A stretch of 33,800 bases of DNA, from assembly GCA_028286865.1 (NCBI GenBank), contig JAQBQU010000017.1:78395-112194 (forward strand), in the 5' to 3' direction. The notes below the pieces were generated by a model. It ran no database searches. It saw nothing but the letters and a program-made list of their open reading frames with translations, and was not told the origin of the DNA. The position numbers were made by a program, and so were the translations under genes. This document shows, piece by piece, positions 509-22,643 of this stretch; position 1 is the first letter of the stretch; the number at the start of each line of letters is the position of its first letter. Source of the stretch: Candidatus Kaiserbacteria bacterium (GTDB taxonomy: Bacteria > Patescibacteriota > Minisyncoccia > Phycocordibacterales > UBA2100).

Positions 509-2083
509 CTAAGCTGCCGGGAACTCAATGATGAATCGGGAGCCCTTATCTTTTCCGTCGGATTCGGCCCAGATATGGGCGCCCTGGGCTTCTATAAAGG
601 TCTTGGCGAGATAGAGGCCGACGCCGGTGCCGAGAAGATTCACCTTCTGGGCATCAGCGCGCGAGAATTTCTTGAAAAGTTGCGGCAATACTGCGGGGTC
701 GATGCCGACACCGGTATCGCTCACCGTCGCACGGATAGCGACTCCATGGCGCTCGACCGAGATCGTGATACCGCCCTTCGGAGTGTATTTAAGAGAATTA
801 TCAACGATATTGCCGATCACCTCTTTTACCTTGCCCTCATCGCCTACGACCATGTATTTCTGCGCGGGATCGAATCGCGTCTCAAGCGTGAGGCCCTTTT
901 TATTGGCATGCGGCTTGTAACCGTCGGCGATGGAAGAAACGATCGCCGACATATCGAACGGGGCCTTCGCGAATTCGATCTGGCCGAGCTCCATCTTCGA
1001 TTTGCTCAGGTATTGCGCAATGAGGTTGAGCACGTCATTGCCCTGGATGAGGATCGTCTCGGCGACCTCTTTGGTCTTGGGACTCACCTCTCCGGTCGTG
1101 CCGTCCATGATAAGTGATGCGTAGCCTCGCATCGCGGTGATCGGATTGCGGATCTCGTGGGAAGCAAAAGTCATAAATTCAGATTTCTCCTCGCTCAGTC
1201 TCTGTATCTCCTCGCGCTGCTCGACCTCTCTGATGATGCTTCGGACCATGAGCACCGAGAAGCTCAGTACCAGTACGAAGACGCTCATGCGGAACACCGT
1301 TTCCCCGGCACTGCGGGAGTTCGCTATCTCGATGAGGCTCGTGACGGAGAGCAGGAATGCGACGACCTCGGTCGCGAGCACCTTTATATTGAGCAGATGA
1401 TACCGATATATAGCGTATGCGGTGCATGCGATAAAGGGAAAGATAAAAAGCGCCGAGAGCGGAAGAAAACGCGCGTTGTTGTAAAGCGCCGGGAGCACGA
1501 AGTTGAACATAAGAATGCACACGAAGGTAATGAACGTGCCCACGCTCATGACGACGATCTGACGACGGGCGTCGCCTTGTCTGCGAACTGCTTTTACAAC
1601 GAGCATAATGATGCCGCTCAATATCAGGGCCGCGACCGTGAGCCCGAAGACGGGTATCAGCGGCCCGTTCTGTATCTGTGTCACGACTCCGGAGCTTGAG
1701 GTCGCGGATACCTCTTTGAAGACCAGTGGCGTGAGGGTAAGGATCGAGACCACCCCCACGAAAGGGATAAGGAGCCAGTAGTACAAACGGTGGAACTTCT
1801 TACTATCGTCGGGGAAGACGGAGCAAAGCGTAAAGAACGCGAATGCATGCCAACAGGCGAAGAAAATAATCGTTCGCGTGATCCAGAGGCCGAACGACGC
1901 GACCGAGGGCTGATACTGTGCGTAGTTGGCGATGCTCCACACGATCGTGATGAGCGAAAAGATGAGGAAGGTACGATTGGTTATACTTTTTCTGTTGCTG
2001 AAATAGATCGTGAATCCCAGAAGGCCGATCCCTGCAGCGGTAATACCGACCGAGATGAGGTCAAGATTCAGTGCAAAGTTCAT
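509..2083 (-). CDS. Multi-TM (7TM-type N-terminus) sensor histidine kinase
   Basis: Multiple hydrophobic N-terminal segments; H-box FASHEIRNPITAMRGY; N-box VIGNIVDNSLKYTP; G-boxes DTGVGID and GTGVGLYLAK. Confidence 0.92.
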   Translation of the reverse strand: MNFALNLDLISVGITAAGIGLLGFTIYFSNRKSITNRTFLIFSLITIVWSIANYAQYQPSVASFGLWITRTIIFFACWHAFAFFTLCSVFPDDSKKFHRLYYWLLIPFVGVVSILTLTPLVFKEVSATSSSGVVTQIQNGPLIPVFGLTVAALILSGIIMLVVKAVRRQGDARRQIVVMSVGTFITFVCILMFNFVLPALYNNARFLPLSALFIFPFIACTAYAIYRYHLLNIKVLATEVVAFLLSVTSLIEIANSRSAGETVFRMSVFVLVLSFSVLMVRSIIREVEQREEIQRLSEEKSEFMTFASHEIRNPITAMRGYASLIMDGTTGEVSPKTKEVAETILIQGNDVLNLIAQYLSKSKMELGQIEFAKAPFDMSAIVSSIADGYKPHANKKGLTLETRFDPAQKYMVVGDEGKVKEVIGNIVDNSLKYTPKGGITISVERHGVAIRATVSDTGVGIDPAVLPQLFKKFSRADAQKVNLLGTGVGLYLAKTFIEAQGAHIWAESDGKDKGSRFIIEFPAA

Positions 2084-3126
2084 ACGGAGATTATAACGGG
2101 CTTTTTGCGCGCGGTTCGTGCAGTAGCAGGTCGTATCGGGACACCGACGCGCAACAGCATCGCGATGGTCGCGCTTTCAGCACGAACCTCGGTTGCAATC
2201 GTGTTGCGAGCATCAGATACACGCAGATGCAGCTCTGATTCGAAATCGGCATCTCTGCTTCGCGATAGATATTCCGCGACATAGAGCAAACCGGCCATTG
2301 GCTGTGCCGCAAGACCACTTGCGGTCGCGGTGAGCCAGATGCGTTGCATTGCTCTGCCCGCTCGAATGAAATCAGATGGTTCGGTATTCGTTAGAAGAAG
2401 AGCCGCGCACGCACCCGCTTGTGCGTATACCGCCGCGTTCGCGCTCGCTGCGCTGCGCGCAAATCCGAGCTTGTTAAGCAGGCGTATGACCGGCCAGTGT
2501 TTGATGACACGAAACGCGGCGCGCACCGGCGGCGGTAGCTCAGTGGTCTTGATATAGAGACCGGGGACGCCGGCATCGTTATCCGACCGCTTCCACAGAA
2601 TGCTCTTGAAAAAAAGTCGGTGCAGCTTACGAGTACGGAGCGCCACCTCCTCCATCACGCTGACCGCGTTTGCAATGCGGCTGATCCCCTCGCGGCTCGT
2701 CACGATCTCAATGGCAACACCGGGCTCTTTGATATCGCGTATCGCATTGAGGGCGTCTTCCGGGACGGAAAGCGCATAGGGCCCCCGCTGCGTATGCCGG
2801 CGCTCTATCGCATCCGAGAGCGGTGACTTTTCTGCTGCGCGTGCCGAGAACCGTATTCGAGCGGCTGTCTCGCTCGTGGGAAAGAGGTCGACCGATGCCG
2901 TAAGTCCTTCCTCTCCCGACGCGACGACTACGTTTTCAATGAGCGCGCCGATAGCAATATAAGTACCCCGCCCTTCCACATTGAGTATCGGGTGATCGAG
3001 CTCCGGCAATGCCTTGATGAACAGCTCATCGTCCGAAACAGAAAATTCCCATGGCTGGGAATTGTCCCCCGAGGGGGCTGAGACGGCGCGCGATACTATC
3101 TTCTCTATCGCGGCTCGGTGATTCAT
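2080..3126 (-). CDS. Nitroreductase-fold FMN protein, Acg/MoeY C-terminal-like
   Basis: AVSAPSGDNSQPWEF motif typical of Acg-type nitroreductases; 4-bp ATGA overlap with the upstream ThiF gene. Confidence 0.75.
   Translation of the reverse strand: MNHRAAIEKIVSRAVSAPSGDNSQPWEFSVSDDELFIKALPELDHPILNVEGRGTYIAIGALIENVVVASGEEGLTASVDLFPTSETAARIRFSARAAEKSPLSDAIERRHTQRGPYALSVPEDALNAIRDIKEPGVAIEIVTSREGISRIANAVSVMEEVALRTRKLHRLFFKSILWKRSDNDAGVPGLYIKTTELPPPVRAAFRVIKHWPVIRLLNKLGFARSAASANAAVYAQAGACAALLLTNTEPSDFIRAGRAMQRIWLTATASGLAAQPMAGLLYVAEYLSRSRDADFESELHLRVSDARNTIATEVRAESATIAMLLRVGVPIRPATARTARKKPVIISV
2090..2095 (-). promoter_or_regulatory. -10 TATAAT, 6 nt before the histidine kinase ATG, inside the nitroreductase CDS
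   Basis: Reverse: cccgTTATAATctccgtATG. Confidence 0.5.
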
Positions 3127-4241
3127 GACGTGAGACCGATGGTCTTGAGGAACTGCGCGCGCGCCGCTTCGCGGGCATCGTGCCGTGCTTCAAATTCTGG
3201 ATCAAGGATGGCGTCGAGACTGATCTCGCGCTTACTTTCTGAAAGCGGTTGGCCGAGGGCGAGGCGCTTGAGCGCGTACGCGATAGCAACGCCGGAAAGC
3301 GTGGCAGCATCACCGAGCTGCGGCCAGGAATATATCGTTTTGCCCACCTCCAATAGTGACGACATCATACGCTCGGTGACAAATGCGGGGCCTGCGATCT
3401 TAGTCGCAAGCTTCGGCAGCTCCTGCGGCGGAAATGTCTTGAACTCTTCGAGTGTGATATCTCCGACCGCACCATTGAAGAGCAGCGCCGTTTTATCGAG
3501 GTCGAACCGCTCAGCTTCAAAAATAATGTTGTCGCCGTTGTCGGTCGCCATAATGACCGGAATGCCGCGCGAGCGTGCCTCAAGTCGCAAGCGGATCTTC
3601 ATCTCAAGGTTATCGGTCTCCTCGACCAAGACATCCGCTCCTTCAAAGAAGGCGGCGATATTCGCGTCGGTCACGCCGGAGTCGTACACTTCTACGGTGG
3701 CGTAGGGATTGAGCTGATAGATATATTCAAGCGCGAGGTCGGTCTTCTTTCTCCCTACCGCAAGAAAGTCCTGCCGAATGCGATTGAGATTCGACGGTGA
3801 GACCGTGTCGGGGTCAGCGATCTTCACATGCTTTGCTCCGCCCATGAGTGCAAACGTGGTGAGTCCATGGCTCCCGACCGAGAGTCCTGCGTACGCCACG
3901 CAGATGCCGTAGAGCTTCTCTTGCTCTTCTTTGGTGATGATATTTCTGTTGCGAGCGGTGCGTATCTCCTGGTGCTCCTCCTCGGGCAAATAATGTGCAA
4001 GGGTGGAATTCCACGGGAAATAGACCCATTGTCCGCACGTTTCAAGCGGCCGCCCCTGTGTGTACGACACGATGAATGCCGCCGTCTCCTCGGCGTGTTC
4101 CCGCTTGAACTTGAAGGGCGGATTGCGTATCTCGCAGAGATCCGTAAGGAGCTCCTGATACTGATCGACGACGCGCGTCGGCTTCAAGCGATCCCGAAAT
4201 GCTTCGAAGGTCTCGATCGAGCTGTCGTGAAATACCGGCAT
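3123..4241 (-). CDS. ThiF/E1-like adenylyltransferase-fold protein (MoeY/Rv1355c N-terminal-like)
   Basis: Rossmann motif VAYAGLSVGSHGLTTFALMG; IADPDTVSPSNLNRIRQ; DNLEMKIRLRLEARSRGIPVIMATDNGDN. No CxxC zinc pairs and no Cys after the nucleotide-binding motif. Confidence 0.85.
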   Translation of the reverse strand: MPVFHDSSIETFEAFRDRLKPTRVVDQYQELLTDLCEIRNPPFKFKREHAEETAAFIVSYTQGRPLETCGQWVYFPWNSTLAHYLPEEEHQEIRTARNRNIITKEEQEKLYGICVAYAGLSVGSHGLTTFALMGGAKHVKIADPDTVSPSNLNRIRQDFLAVGRKKTDLALEYIYQLNPYATVEVYDSGVTDANIAAFFEGADVLVEETDNLEMKIRLRLEARSRGIPVIMATDNGDNIIFEAERFDLDKTALLFNGAVGDITLEEFKTFPPQELPKLATKIAGPAFVTERMMSSLLEVGKTIYSWPQLGDAATLSGVAIAYALKRLALGQPLSESKREISLDAILDPEFEARHDAREAARAQFLKTIGLTS

Positions 4242-4247
4242 GGCGCC

Positions 4248-4253
4248 ATTGTA
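4248..4253 (-). promoter_or_regulatory. -10 TACAAT, 6 nt before the ThiF-like ATG
   Basis: Reverse: gtgatacaccagtgaTACAATggcgccATG. Confidence 0.55.
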
Positions 4254-4285
4254 TCACTGGTGTATCACTTCGCGTATCGCGTTGC

Positions 4286-5791
4286 CTACTGAGTGCGAAT
4301 AACCCACTTTTGTTTTATGTCGCGGCGGAAATAGAGCGGGTCTTCGTGCGGCCAGAATATGAGATGCGGCTCGGCGCGTTCGCCCAGGAACTTTGCAAGC
4401 TCACTGAACTCCCCGTTCTTCTGCTTGAGGTCTTTTACGATCTCGGCAAGAAGCTGGGAGGAAAATGTCTTCGAGGCCTCCTTTTCGGAGCGGAGTTCAA
4501 TGTTGATCTCGAGGTATTGGTCGTGCTGGTCGTCATATTTGGTGACGAGCGTGAAGCGACCGGTCACGAACGGTGCGAAGACCTCCTGCAGAAGCGTCTC
4601 TTTGATGGTTTCCGGATAGATCTGGAGGCCATAGAGGGTCGTAGAAAGGTCAGAGCGCTCATATACATAGACAAAAGGGAGCTTCGCGAGCGAGGGCTCG
4701 ATCTTCGCGTCGCGCATCTCTTTTGCCAGATCGATGCCGTGCTCTTTGAAAAGGGATGCGATGCGCTCGAATGCGTAGACCCCGCCATTGTCGCCGATGG
4801 CGTAGCGGATCAAAGGCATCGCGCTATCTCCCGATATCAGAAGTTCGCCGTTGGATTCTTCAAAGGACGTAAAGGTCGGATTGAATTGTGCGAGTGTTGG
4901 CGTTTTGTTGATCGAACCGAAAAGTTTGGCAAAAAGCTCCGTATCGGCACCGGCGATGCGGCGTACCAGTATCGAAAGCGGTGTTTCCGCGGCCATAGTT
5001 CCCAGGTCGGCAGTTCCGTATATGTTCATGGTGTCGGTAAGCGCATTTTTGATGCCGGCTTTCTTTGATATGTAGTCGCGGAAATGCTCACTGAACGCCT
5101 CGGCGGCGAAAAGAAGCGCCATGCGATACCCTTTCAAAGAGATCCCCTTCTCTGCCGCTTCATCGATGACGTCCTTAATGAACGGAGGATACCCTGCCAA
5201 GATTATCTGGTCGTACTGCGGTGCGAGAAGTCGAAGGATCTTGAAGATCTCCGTCTTGTTGATGCCGGGAGTTATGACCGAGATCGGGTGTCCGCGCTTT
5301 CCGAGCAGCTGAAATGCCTGGTAGGTGATCAGTCCGCCGATCCACACGCCCATGCCGAAGCAGACGATAACGAGCGTGGGCTTGGTCTTCGAGAGCGAGC
5401 TCTGCAGAAAGAAACGCTCATGAACCAGCGCGGATTGCTCGTCAATTGCATGGGAGCGTGCAAAGTAGAACGGTTCTCCGGTCGATCCGGAGGTGGATGT
5501 CATGATGTGCGGAGTTGCGAGCGCCCCGCCCCAGAAAAGATCCTTGTACTTATAGTCGCGAAGATAATTATTTTTATTCGTCGGAGGAATATGGGTGATA
5601 TCCGCCGCGGAGTTCACAAGGTCTTTTACAAAGCGGTTCTTTTTGAGGAACGCCTTATACGCCGGAACCTCGCGGCTCATGCGCTGATAGAGCTTGTAGA
5701 TGTGGGCCTGGACCGCCTGAAAAGCATTGGAAGAGGGCTTGGCGGTCTTCGTGAGCGATCTGCGTTTTGGAGAGACGGTGGTCCGAGTCAT
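4286..5791 (-). CDS. Adenylate-forming enzyme, PaaK/CapK (phenylacetate-CoA ligase / coenzyme F390 synthetase)-like
   Basis: STSGSTGEPFYFARS P-loop; MNIYGTADLGTMAAETP; PLIRYAIGDNGGVY. The ORF extends to 5833, but a start at 5791 (MTRTTVSPKRR) sits exactly downstream of TATAAT. Confidence 0.82.
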   Translation of the reverse strand: MTRTTVSPKRRSLTKTAKPSSNAFQAVQAHIYKLYQRMSREVPAYKAFLKKNRFVKDLVNSAADITHIPPTNKNNYLRDYKYKDLFWGGALATPHIMTSTSGSTGEPFYFARSHAIDEQSALVHERFFLQSSLSKTKPTLVIVCFGMGVWIGGLITYQAFQLLGKRGHPISVITPGINKTEIFKILRLLAPQYDQIILAGYPPFIKDVIDEAAEKGISLKGYRMALLFAAEAFSEHFRDYISKKAGIKNALTDTMNIYGTADLGTMAAETPLSILVRRIAGADTELFAKLFGSINKTPTLAQFNPTFTSFEESNGELLISGDSAMPLIRYAIGDNGGVYAFERIASLFKEHGIDLAKEMRDAKIEPSLAKLPFVYVYERSDLSTTLYGLQIYPETIKETLLQEVFAPFVTGRFTLVTKYDDQHDQYLEINIELRSEKEASKTFSSQLLAEIVKDLKQKNGEFSELAKFLGERAEPHLIFWPHEDPLYFRRDIKQKWVIRTQ

Positions 5792-5797
5792 ATATAT

Positions 5798-5803
5798 ATT
5801 ATA
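5798..5803 (-). promoter_or_regulatory. -10 TATAAT, 6 nt before the PaaK-like ATG (with TGGACA 18 nt upstream)
   Basis: Reverse: TGGACA-N18-TATAAT atatat ATG. Confidence 0.65.
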
Positions 5804-6848
5804 ACACTGATTGTGCCGTATTGTCCAGGGCATACTTCATGCACTCAATTACACGGCCTAAATGCTCAGCGGAGGGGACGGACGCGCGTATCGTATTGCG
5901 CAGTACGTCTTGCGCGCTCGCGATGCCGCTCATTACATCGCCCCGAGCTACCATGATGCCCTGCTCAGACAAAGTCGTCTGCATGGATCCGCTGTCGGGG
6001 ACGCGCATGAGAATAAAGTTGGTCTCGGAGCTGTATGGGGTGATCCGCGGAAGCTCTCGCAATGCCGCCATGAATACATCGCGCTGTGCAATGACCGCAC
6101 GTACCCGCTCGCGAATATGGTCGATGTGTTCGAGTCCTCTGAGTGCCGCATACGCCGATGAGTGCGCGACCGGCCATGGAAGCATGCGTTCTCGAAGTGC
6201 AGCGACGGTATCGCTCCGCGCTATACAGTAGCCCACACGGGCTCCGGCGAGTCCGAATGCTTTTGAAAGGGTGCGCAGGATGATGAGCGGCTGCCTGCTC
6301 AGTCGACCGATCGACGACGTCTCTGCGAATTCAAAATATGCTTCATCAATAACGACGGTCGTCCCCTTTTTTTGGGCGGCATCAAGAATGCGATCAAGGT
6401 CTTCTTGGGGTATGCGACTGCCGAGCGGATTGTTGGGCTGACAGAGAAAGACGACATCCGTTCCCTCTTGTATGCAGGTAATGGTTGCTTCGGTCGGAAA
6501 TATAAATTGCCCGCCGTTCTCGCGATAGCACACGGTGTCATAGGCAAGCCCGACCGTCTTGAAAATGCGCTCGTATCCGTAGAATGTCGGCACCGGCAGA
6601 AGTACCCGTTTGCCGTCTTTTGCATAGAGCTCTGCGAGGACGCGGATAGCGGCGTCGGATCCGGGCGTCACCAGTATCTGATCCGCCTGTACGCCGGCGT
6701 ACCTTGCAAGTGCCGCGGCAATCTCCGAATAATCCGCATACGTGGAATATTCCTTTGTCGTCACCGAACTATAGGCCGCGAGGAGCACCTCATCGAGCAG
6801 CCAGTAGCTCTCGTTGTGCTGCAGCGCAATGACGTCGCTTCCGTGCAT
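5799..6848 (-). CDS. PLP-dependent aminotransferase, HisC-like (class I/II)
   Basis: CQPNNPLGSRIP, VIDEAYFEFAE, LRTLSKAFGLAGARVGY (PLP lysine motif). Confidence 0.88.
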   Translation of the reverse strand: MHGSDVIALQHNESYWLLDEVLLAAYSSVTTKEYSTYADYSEIAAALARYAGVQADQILVTPGSDAAIRVLAELYAKDGKRVLLPVPTFYGYERIFKTVGLAYDTVCYRENGGQFIFPTEATITCIQEGTDVVFLCQPNNPLGSRIPQEDLDRILDAAQKKGTTVVIDEAYFEFAETSSIGRLSRQPLIILRTLSKAFGLAGARVGYCIARSDTVAALRERMLPWPVAHSSAYAALRGLEHIDHIRERVRAVIAQRDVFMAALRELPRITPYSSETNFILMRVPDSGSMQTTLSEQGIMVARGDVMSGIASAQDVLRNTIRASVPSAEHLGRVIECMKYALDNTAQSVL

Positions 6849-6905: not shown

Positions 6906-7388
6906 CTAGCTGCGCACCGCTGCGAGCGCCGCATAGGAGCCGATCAGCCAGAACAGCGCATACGCCGAGCCGAATATCTCTGACGCGGGCGCCGAAAAAT
7001 GCCAAAGCGCAGAGAGTGCCGGCAGCTGCATCCAGAAGACTGCGAGCAGAGCGGTGGTCGCAAGGCCCGCGAGGATCGCGTTGGGCACTGAAGCAGAATT
7101 ATAGTCGCGCGAGATCCGATGCATCATGACCGTAAAGACGCCGAGCAGAAGGAGCAGTATCACGGCATACGGAACTCCTTTGATGCTTGCGAGCGACGCG
7201 CCCACGATGGCGCTTTTTGAGAGAAGTGCGGCACACAGATAGGTGGGCGGAAGTGCGAGAGAAAGCGCTATAGCTCGCGAGGCGCCGGAGCGAAGCGCAT
7301 CGACGGTCACGAGGAGTACCAAAGCGACCAGAATGATCCAATCGGTCGAGATATGCGCGAATGTTCCGGTGACCGAAGCAAGATCCAT
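6906..7388 (-). CDS. Hypothetical multi-TM membrane protein
   Basis: 160 aa, several hydrophobic segments; TATAAT located 6 nt before the ATG. Confidence 0.6.
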   Translation of the reverse strand: MDLASVTGTFAHISTDWIILVALVLLVTVDALRSGASRAIALSLALPPTYLCAALLSKSAIVGASLASIKGVPYAVILLLLLGVFTVMMHRISRDYNSASVPNAILAGLATTALLAVFWMQLPALSALWHFSAPASEIFGSAYALFWLIGSYAALAAVRS

Positions 7389-21818: not shown

Positions 21819-22643
21819 CTAGAGGCCGAGCGTCGCGGTATCGGGCTTTTCTTCGGTCTTAGGGGCACGCTTCGCAGCCTTCGGCGCGTAGCGGGCCATC
21901 AGCTTTTTGCCCACAGTCTCGCGATAGATACAGTAATCACACCCCGACGCAGCGTCGGGCAGTTCGTCGCCCTCAAGGCATTCTTTGATAGAGAGCAGCG
22001 TCGGCTCGACCCATGACGTGTCGCCTTTGTACGGAATGAGCGTGAGTTCAAATTCGAGTTTCGCATCGAACGCTTCCTTATCGGTGCCCGCGTTGGCATA
22101 CACGAAATATCCCGTGTCGCTCACAGAGAATCCGCTTTGTCGGAAGAGCCACTGGTAGACCTCCATCTGATGCTTGTATCCGATGTGCCAATCCTGATCG
22201 AGCGCATCGATCTTCTCGTCCTTGCTCGTGGATTTATAATCGACAATGATCAGCTCTCCGGCCGGATTAACCCAGATATCGTCTATCGCACCCGATACTT
22301 TGAATCCGGTTGCAGGATGTCGGTATTCAATACCTTTGAAATTCTCCCGCCATACATCCATATGAGCGTGAGAGAACGGTATCGCATCAAGCCCATATGC
22401 TTTCATAAGCGGATGCGTAGACTCAGCGGCTCGGTGAATATCAAATTCTTTTTTAAGAAGCGTGTCCACGGCACTATTGAGATTGAACGGAAAGCCGGAC
22501 GGCCTCGCGGTACCCAGCTTATTGTCGATGTAGAAACAGCGAGGGCACTCCTGAAAGAGGCCGATCTTTGAGCGCGATAAGCGCCAATTCTCCCCGCCGT
22601 AGTTCCATCGGGGGTTGCGATCCGGTTTGTAGAAGCCGCTCAT
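21819..22643 (-). CDS. PD-(D/E)XK nuclease family protein (RecB/Cas4-like)
   Basis: SGAIDDIWVNPAGELIIVDYKST (D...DxK), QMEVYQWLF (QxxxY); paired Cys ECPRC and CDYC. Confidence 0.85.
   Translation of the reverse strand: MSGFYKPDRNPRWNYGGENWRLSRSKIGLFQECPRCFYIDNKLGTARPSGFPFNLNSAVDTLLKKEFDIHRAAESTHPLMKAYGLDAIPFSHAHMDVWRENFKGIEYRHPATGFKVSGAIDDIWVNPAGELIIVDYKSTSKDEKIDALDQDWHIGYKHQMEVYQWLFRQSGFSVSDTGYFVYANAGTDKEAFDAKLEFELTLIPYKGDTSWVEPTLLSIKECLEGDELPDAASGCDYCIYRETVGKKLMARYAPKAAKRAPKTEEKPDTATLGL

Follow-up and report, generated by a model that had tools for sequence, protein, structure and literature searches.

The window analysed here is a stretch of 33,800 nucleotides (contig JAQBQU010000017.1) from a Candidatus Kaiserbacteria bacterium of the Candidate Phyla Radiation (CPR/Patescibacteria), whose 871-kb genome is about 90% complete. 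It holds five consecutive open reading frames, all on the minus strand, between housekeeping genes: dnaJ, dnaK and grpE on one side and trpS on the other. A sequence-only reading of this DNA had placed five same-strand genes here and guessed their families; the coordinates are confirmed and Pfam and NCBIfam searches give the same assignments. In order of transcription, the genes encode a HisC-like, fold-type I pyridoxal phosphate (PLP) aminotransferase of 349 amino acids (5799..6848; PF00155, 1.1e-48; TIGR01141), a PaaK-like adenylate-forming enzyme listed at 515 amino acids (4286..5833; profile and predicted fold), a putative ThiF-like adenylating cyclase of 372 amino acids (3123..4241; PF00899, 5.6e-20), a putative nitroreductase-fold flavin-dependent oxidase of 348 amino acids (2080..3126; PF00881, 9.7e-09), hereafter the flavoenzyme, and a histidine kinase (509..2083). 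The kinase comprises a seven-transmembrane (7TM) sensor half, residues 1-284 (1232..2083; PF16927 HisKA_7TM, 7.7e-13; predicted model with a pLDDT of 85), and a HisKA plus HATPase_c half (509..1231; PF00512, 7.9e-13; PF02518, 5e-24).

The 4-bp ATGA overlaps at the ThiF/nitroreductase and nitroreductase/kinase junctions, which had been taken to imply coupling of these genes, are both real. However, a −10-like hexamer stands exactly 6 bp before the start codon of three of the cluster genes, all on the same strand: TATAAT ahead of the kinase (2090..2095, within the nitroreductase gene), TACAAT ahead of ThiF (4248..4253) and a leaderless-type TATAAT ahead of the probable PaaK start (5798..5803). 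Overlap by itself is therefore no proof of a single transcript. For the PaaK-like gene, the start at 5791 (501 amino acids) is more likely than that at 5833, since it is the ATG at 5791 that the TATAAT precedes by 6 bp. Hexamers resembling TATAAT were also seen 6 bp before the starts of a 160-amino-acid membrane protein and of the genes at 22643 and 30863, which suggests that transcription in this genome is widely leaderless.

A four-gene unit across the CPR

The PaaK-like ligase, ThiF, the flavoenzyme and the 7TM kinase form a real unit. We used a fixed panel of 60 genomes, our own included (36 of the same genus and 24 of the same order), in which a kinase was counted when its sensor half closely matched that of the window kinase (E below 1e-30). 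All four genes occur in an identical set of 13/60 genomes and the remaining 47/60 have none, with no partial sets; ThiF gave 13 strong matches and one weak match, while the PaaK-like protein, the flavoenzyme and the kinase sensor gave 13 each. Ignoring shared ancestry, the probability that two sets of 13/60 coincide by chance is about 2e-13.

A profile scan of GTDB contigs returned 125 PaaK relatives. The 80 matches listed came from Patescibacteria lineages or bins named only "bacterium", apart from one labelled Pseudomonadota, possibly by misnaming. Across a phylum-wide sample the ligase was present in 54/380 genomes and 48/313 genera. Neighbours were counted at the 67 PaaK loci with enough flank on both sides, where ThiF was found at 64/67, the flavoenzyme at 55/67, the kinase at 60/67 and all four genes at 51/67. 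The order of the genes differs among loci, with the positions of ThiF and the flavoenzyme sometimes exchanged, yet the four stay together, so that the unit survives rearrangement. Nor is it confined to the site between dnaJ and trpS, the kinase accompanying PaaK at 41/48 loci outside it. Nearly all of the genomes compared are metagenome-assembled, and functions are assigned to their enzymes by homology. The sequence-only reading had named random adjacency in relatives as the outcome that would undo its proposal of a functional set; the comparison has now been run and, given the panel and the phylum-wide loci, adjacency by chance is not supported.

The same reading had counted the aminotransferase as a member of the set. 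This must be revised, as the aminotransferase is an exchangeable front end and not a core member: it was found at just 16/67 loci, a median of 27 bp upstream of PaaK, and is replaced elsewhere by a dehydrogenase or an ammonia-lyase. In all, PaaK is associated with three kinds of deaminating enzyme. The ScyB/ELFV-type amino-acid dehydrogenase (NF035922 tryptophan dehydrogenase, 1e-74) occurs at 22/67 loci, a median of 3 bp upstream, and at one locus it is present together with the aminotransferase. The aromatic ammonia-lyase lies directly before PaaK at locus L019, where its best model is the flexirubin tyrosine ammonia-lyase (5.7e-165), and directly after PaaK at L025. The L019 enzyme (L019:3023-4624) has TSG where the triad forming the methylidene-imidazolone (MIO) cofactor is usually ASG. 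Close homologues of the window aminotransferase (40-47% identity) were found in six genomes of the same genus; on intact contigs they lie immediately 5' of PaaK. A histidine-pathway role was considered for this enzyme and rejected: its TIGR01141 hisC score of 227 bits is under the cut-off of 276.55, and other deaminating enzymes take its place in relatives. The aminotransferase would convert an amino acid to a 2-oxo acid, and the common outcome of the three front-end enzymes could be a deaminated carbon skeleton for PaaK to activate.

Two halves of the sensor kinase

Genomes of the same genus that lack the enzymes usually still hold a histidine kinase in the dnaJ-trpS slot, just before trpS, with other genes in place of the enzymes. 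Because this persistence apparently speaks against a functional link, we split the kinase at residue 284 and compared its halves separately. Identities between pairs are not phylogenetically independent; each protein's own kinase half provides an internal control. The sensor half of cluster kinases has a median identity of 0.36 to cluster kinases elsewhere in the CPR vs 0.19 to same-genus kinases without enzymes; for the kinase half the corresponding values are 0.35 and 0.52. When the labels with and without enzymes were permuted within the genus and its closest relatives, p was 0.0002 for the sensor half and 0.54 for the kinase half. The kinase at L112, which occupies the same slot in the same genus without the enzymes, is 76% identical to the window kinase in the kinase half vs 23% in the sensor half, and at a single point near residue 280 identity jumps from about 0.28 to 0.88, whereas for the kinase at L045, from another lineage with the enzymes, identity is spread along the whole length. 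Among the slots compared, the cluster-type sensor half was found only where the enzymes are present. The strongest finding of the analysis is that the sensor half follows the enzymes across the phylum, while the kinase half follows the host genome and slot.

Over 53 cluster loci, distances between sensor halves correlated with those between flavoenzymes (0.62, or 0.59 controlling for the kinase half) and between ThiF proteins (0.47, or 0.42 with the same control). For the kinase half, controlling for the sensor, the values were 0.00 with the flavoenzyme and 0.08 with ThiF. Sensor specificity tracking the synthase, as in a CqsA/CqsS-like pair, is what this sequence covariation displays. Most simply, the sensor would recognise something that depends on ThiF and the flavoenzyme, and product, intermediate or substrate would all be compatible with it. 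Among the matches listed in a fold search with the kinase model, the cytoplasmic kinase half alone matched, and the sensor fold therefore offers no hint of a ligand. Response-regulator receivers lie within 8 kb of PaaK at 17/67 loci.

The slot itself is polymorphic, and at L112-L131, all without the enzymes, varied genes stand beside the kinase. They include a FabH/KAS III-like gene (L112), a 621-amino-acid aldehyde-dehydrogenase-like enzyme (L119, L129), an acyl-ACP-reductase/PigE-like enzyme (L114; ACP, acyl carrier protein), a histidine-decarboxylase-like PLP enzyme (L121), and a family of 270-326 amino acids and no known type that overlaps or lies near the kinase (L116, L124, L127). Where two kinases share a type of neighbour gene (L119 and L129; L124 and L127), their sensor halves are sisters as well. 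At one cluster three kinases stand in a row (L075:13643-18670), and two of their sensor halves group with the non-cluster type. The 160-amino-acid membrane protein (6906..7388, minus strand; no Pfam or NCBIfam match) follows dnaJ in the window and in most same-genus genomes looked at; since it resides in the slot with or without the enzymes, it is probably outside the pathway.

Predicted chemistry of the enzymes

By sequence, ThiF and the nitroreductase correspond to a split TrzS/TyzBC oxazolone cyclase-desaturase. TrzS, which is Rv1355c, uses ATP to cyclise an N-acyl amino acid and O2 to desaturate it, yielding an oxazolone (PMC12856293); its unfused counterparts are TyzB and TyzC (PMC10404671). 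The Rv1355c-family model NF005901 is the best NCBIfam match of the window ThiF (1.1e-77) and the second of the flavoenzyme (1.5e-45), the two proteins matching its N- and C-terminal parts, respectively. The flavoenzyme also matches the Acg family (1.2e-44) and the Acg structure 2ymv (9.9e-25). Annotated Rhodococcus proteins of the Rv1355c family, among the best plasmid matches, are ∼38% identical to ThiF, and the motifs RTARNRNIIT, GLSVGS, NLNR and EE(C/T)D align across ThiF. D210 of the window ThiF, the Asp of the (V/I)EE(C/T)D motif, is the likely equivalent of TrzS D217. A Magasanikbacteria contig (L070) encodes ThiF and the flavoenzyme as a single TrzS-like fusion, with PaaK and the kinase alongside. 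Part of the chemistry has accordingly already been described in other phyla (PMC12856293, PMC10404671), and the pair agrees with a split TrzS/TyzBC instead of the TOMM-like (thiazole/oxazole-modified microcin) or MccB-like enzymes first suggested. A sulfur-carrier E1 (ThiF/MoeB) was rejected as unlikely, as the CxxC zinc motif was found in 0/77 ThiF relatives and no ThiS/MoaD carrier (PF02597) in the genome.

Further genes were noted around the pair. ThiF carries a fused alpha/beta hydrolase domain at L107:11455-13419, where PaaK and two kinases are its neighbours; five clusters contain S9-type peptidases or hydrolases; and a methyltransferase-like family (L043:5340-6281 and ten relatives), for which a tailoring step is possible, lies near the flavoenzyme and the kinase.

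The PaaK-like protein was assigned to PaaK by profile search, and its predicted model (pLDDT 80) has PaaK1 and PaaK2 as top fold matches (4e-21 to 1e-19). Adenylation motifs are retained in its relatives: SG[ST][ST]G in 79/82, the A5-type motif in 74/82 and the C-terminal Lys motif in 77/82. A profile search of the PDB returned only PaaK-type CoA ligases and relatives. The Foldseek fold class also takes in NatL2 (6siw/6siy) and ClxA (9s3l), at ∼16-17% identity, so that the fold search is compatible with both a CoA ligase and an amide ligase; PMC12519233 calls ClxA, a PaaK-family enzyme, an amide ligase. We found no match to the FeeM-type N-acyltransferase (PF21926) in the genome and no acyltransferase among the identified recurrent neighbour families of PaaK clusters, and a hidden N-acyl amino acid synthase was rejected on both counts. 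No ACP was found in the genome, the control search being positive in 11/14 genomes. Since neither an N-acyltransferase nor an ACP was found, and since PaaK-family enzymes such as ClxA can form amides, the PaaK-like enzyme probably supplies the N-acyl bond in place of an N-acyltransferase.

Interpretation and comparison with known systems

We tentatively favour, at a little short of an even chance, the reading of this locus as a biosynthesis-and-sensing unit of the CPR whose product would be an N-acyl (dehydro)amino-acid oxazolone or something closely related, and which carries its own receptor kinase. A front-end enzyme, here the aminotransferase and in relatives the dehydrogenase or ammonia-lyase, would deaminate an amino acid to a 2-oxo or acrylic acid, a step for and against which the case is balanced. 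The PaaK-like enzyme would adenylate that acid and attach it at the amino group of another amino acid, in place of the acyl-CoA- or ACP-dependent N-acyltransferase of known oxazolone clusters; we are equally divided on this. That ThiF would then adenylate the carboxylate of the N-acyl amino acid and close the oxazolone ring, with the flavoenzyme adding the alpha,beta double bond, is fairly probable from homology to TrzS/TyzBC. Lastly, the 7TM half of the kinase would detect the product or a close derivative and feed the host's own phosphorelay, which we consider reasonably probable from the covariation. The outline of this, in which the enzymes turn an amino or keto acid into a small molecule that the kinase may sense, had already been proposed, and the proposal gains strong support from the phylum-wide co-occurrence and from the covariation of sensor half and enzymes, with the chemistry as predicted from homologues.

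Several points weigh against this interpretation. The chemistry is transferred by homology, and the NF005901 scores of the split genes (261.9 and 155.7 bits) are below the curated cut-off of 476. No recognised front-end enzyme was found at 29/67 loci, so deamination is not universal; at these loci the acid may be drawn from the cell's pool. The PaaK-like enzyme could simply make an acyl-CoA. Covariation between sensor and PaaK is weak (partial r 0.10), and what the sensor responds to may be a precursor, or some other factor that correlates with the pathway. The window kinase has no response regulator next to it. The absences reported for a genome about 90% complete are provisional. Many CPR bacteria are thought to be anaerobic. 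The desaturation carried out by TrzS and TyzC is O2-dependent (PMC12856293, PMC10404671).

Other explanations share some of this evidence. An oxazolone-type metabolite might have a role other than signalling, in the membrane, redox metabolism, antimicrobial activity or metal binding, with a kinase that senses a related stress and regulates production. Antimicrobial and stress-linked roles of known oxazolones have been discussed (PMC12856293), and a regulator beside its pathway is a common arrangement, but a general-stress sensor needs no sensor half that tracks the subtype of flavoenzyme and ThiF across the phylum, a tracking absent from the kinase half; we consider this explanation unlikely, though a serious contender. 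Rather less probable is a product other than an oxazolone, in which PaaK would make an aryl- or acyl-CoA for use by ThiF and the flavoenzyme, and these would carry out a different heterocycle formation or dehydrogenation. CoA ligases are indeed the nearest PaaK relatives of known structure, and the PaaK fold also includes benzoxazole-pathway ligases, but the nearest relatives of the ThiF/flavoenzyme pair are enzymes whose oxazolone activity has been demonstrated (PMC12856293).

It is very improbable that ThiF and the nitroreductase modify a ribosomal peptide, as in TOMM or linear azole-containing peptide (LAP) systems, with PaaK as an accessory. LAP clusters in which a nitroreductase gene adjoins YcaO have been reported in CPR genomes (PMC7298704), and a YcaO is present in this genome; however, YcaO is not among the identified families recurring near PaaK, and the matches of ThiF and the flavoenzyme are to the Rv1355c/TrzS and Acg families. 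A TOMM/LAP cluster was rejected for the window, which lies on contig C13, as the only YcaO found (L152, C7:5469-6455) is on contig C7, where it possibly belongs to a separate LAP system of the kind reported in the CPR (PMC7298704). The kinase often found just before trpS in same-genus genomes without the enzymes could suggest that the genes are adjacent by chance, or that the kinase merely resides in the slot. This has a negligible probability in view of the perfect co-occurrence in the panel, the loci outside the slot and the restriction of the cluster-type sensor to genomes with the enzymes, and random adjacency is already refuted for the set as a whole.

A wider form of the signalling interpretation, which we offer as speculation and would sooner doubt than affirm, is that chemical signalling is widespread in the CPR and uses an amino-acid-derived, oxazolone-type autoinducer whose synthesis involves neither fatty acids nor carrier proteins; a 7TM kinase would read it, sensor and synthase cassette being swapped as one. 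In this genus, the dnaJ-trpS slot would then be a polymorphic locus where synthase cassettes for different small molecules are exchanged, each accompanied by its matching sensor. CPR bacteria are tiny and mostly uncultured, and many are considered to live as symbionts, with genomes of very small size. If the interpretation holds, CPR bacteria have a dedicated small-molecule signal, and a biosynthetic route to it that is independent of fatty-acid synthesis and acyl carrier proteins. The physiological role of oxazolones is regarded as a major unresolved question by the authors of PMC12856293. Here an oxazolone-type enzyme pair is genetically linked with a specific receptor kinase in dozens of genomes of one phylum, so that a role in signalling can be tested directly.

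Among known systems, TrzAS (Rv1356c/Rv1355c), which makes tryptazolones in Mycobacterium and Rhodococcus (PMC12856293), has a ThiF-like cyclase and an Acg-type flavin oxidase close in sequence to ours, in a fused form of which the CPR also has an example. The window differs in its split genes, in a PaaK-like ligase where no TrzA-type N-acyltransferase was found, in the sensor kinase within the unit and in its CPR host. TyzACB, for the tyrazolones of M. tuberculosis (PMC10404671), and the stieleriacine/thalassotalic acid clusters (PMC12479983) resemble it in their separate, operon-like ThiF and nitroreductase-family genes, but use an N-acyl amino acid synthase, and the accessible parts of these sources describe no PaaK or kinase there. 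Because an N-acyltransferase (FeeM/AHL-synthase-like; AHL, acyl-homoserine lactone) was looked for and not found, we do not place the window set in the Trz/Tyz family. NatL2 and ClxA of benzoxazole biosynthesis (PMC7204872, PMC12519233) share the fold class of the window PaaK, with ClxA as the described amide ligase, but have little sequence identity to it. No description of this gene set in the CPR was found in the open-licence papers searched, most subscription-journal papers being outside that coverage; oxazolone chemistry and synthase-kinase pairs are each known, and it is their combination that was not found there. CqsA/CqsS and LqsA/LqsS are autoinducer synthase-kinase pairs in which, as here, a PLP or other synthase stands beside a multi-transmembrane sensor kinase, but their synthase chemistry is different, and the window set has no adjacent response regulator. 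Polymorphic signal loci of the agr type, in which the sensor half varies with the signal-making genes and the kinase half stays constant, show the same pattern as the window kinase and its relatives, with the difference that the set described here consists of enzymes of small-molecule metabolism and not of genes for a peptide.

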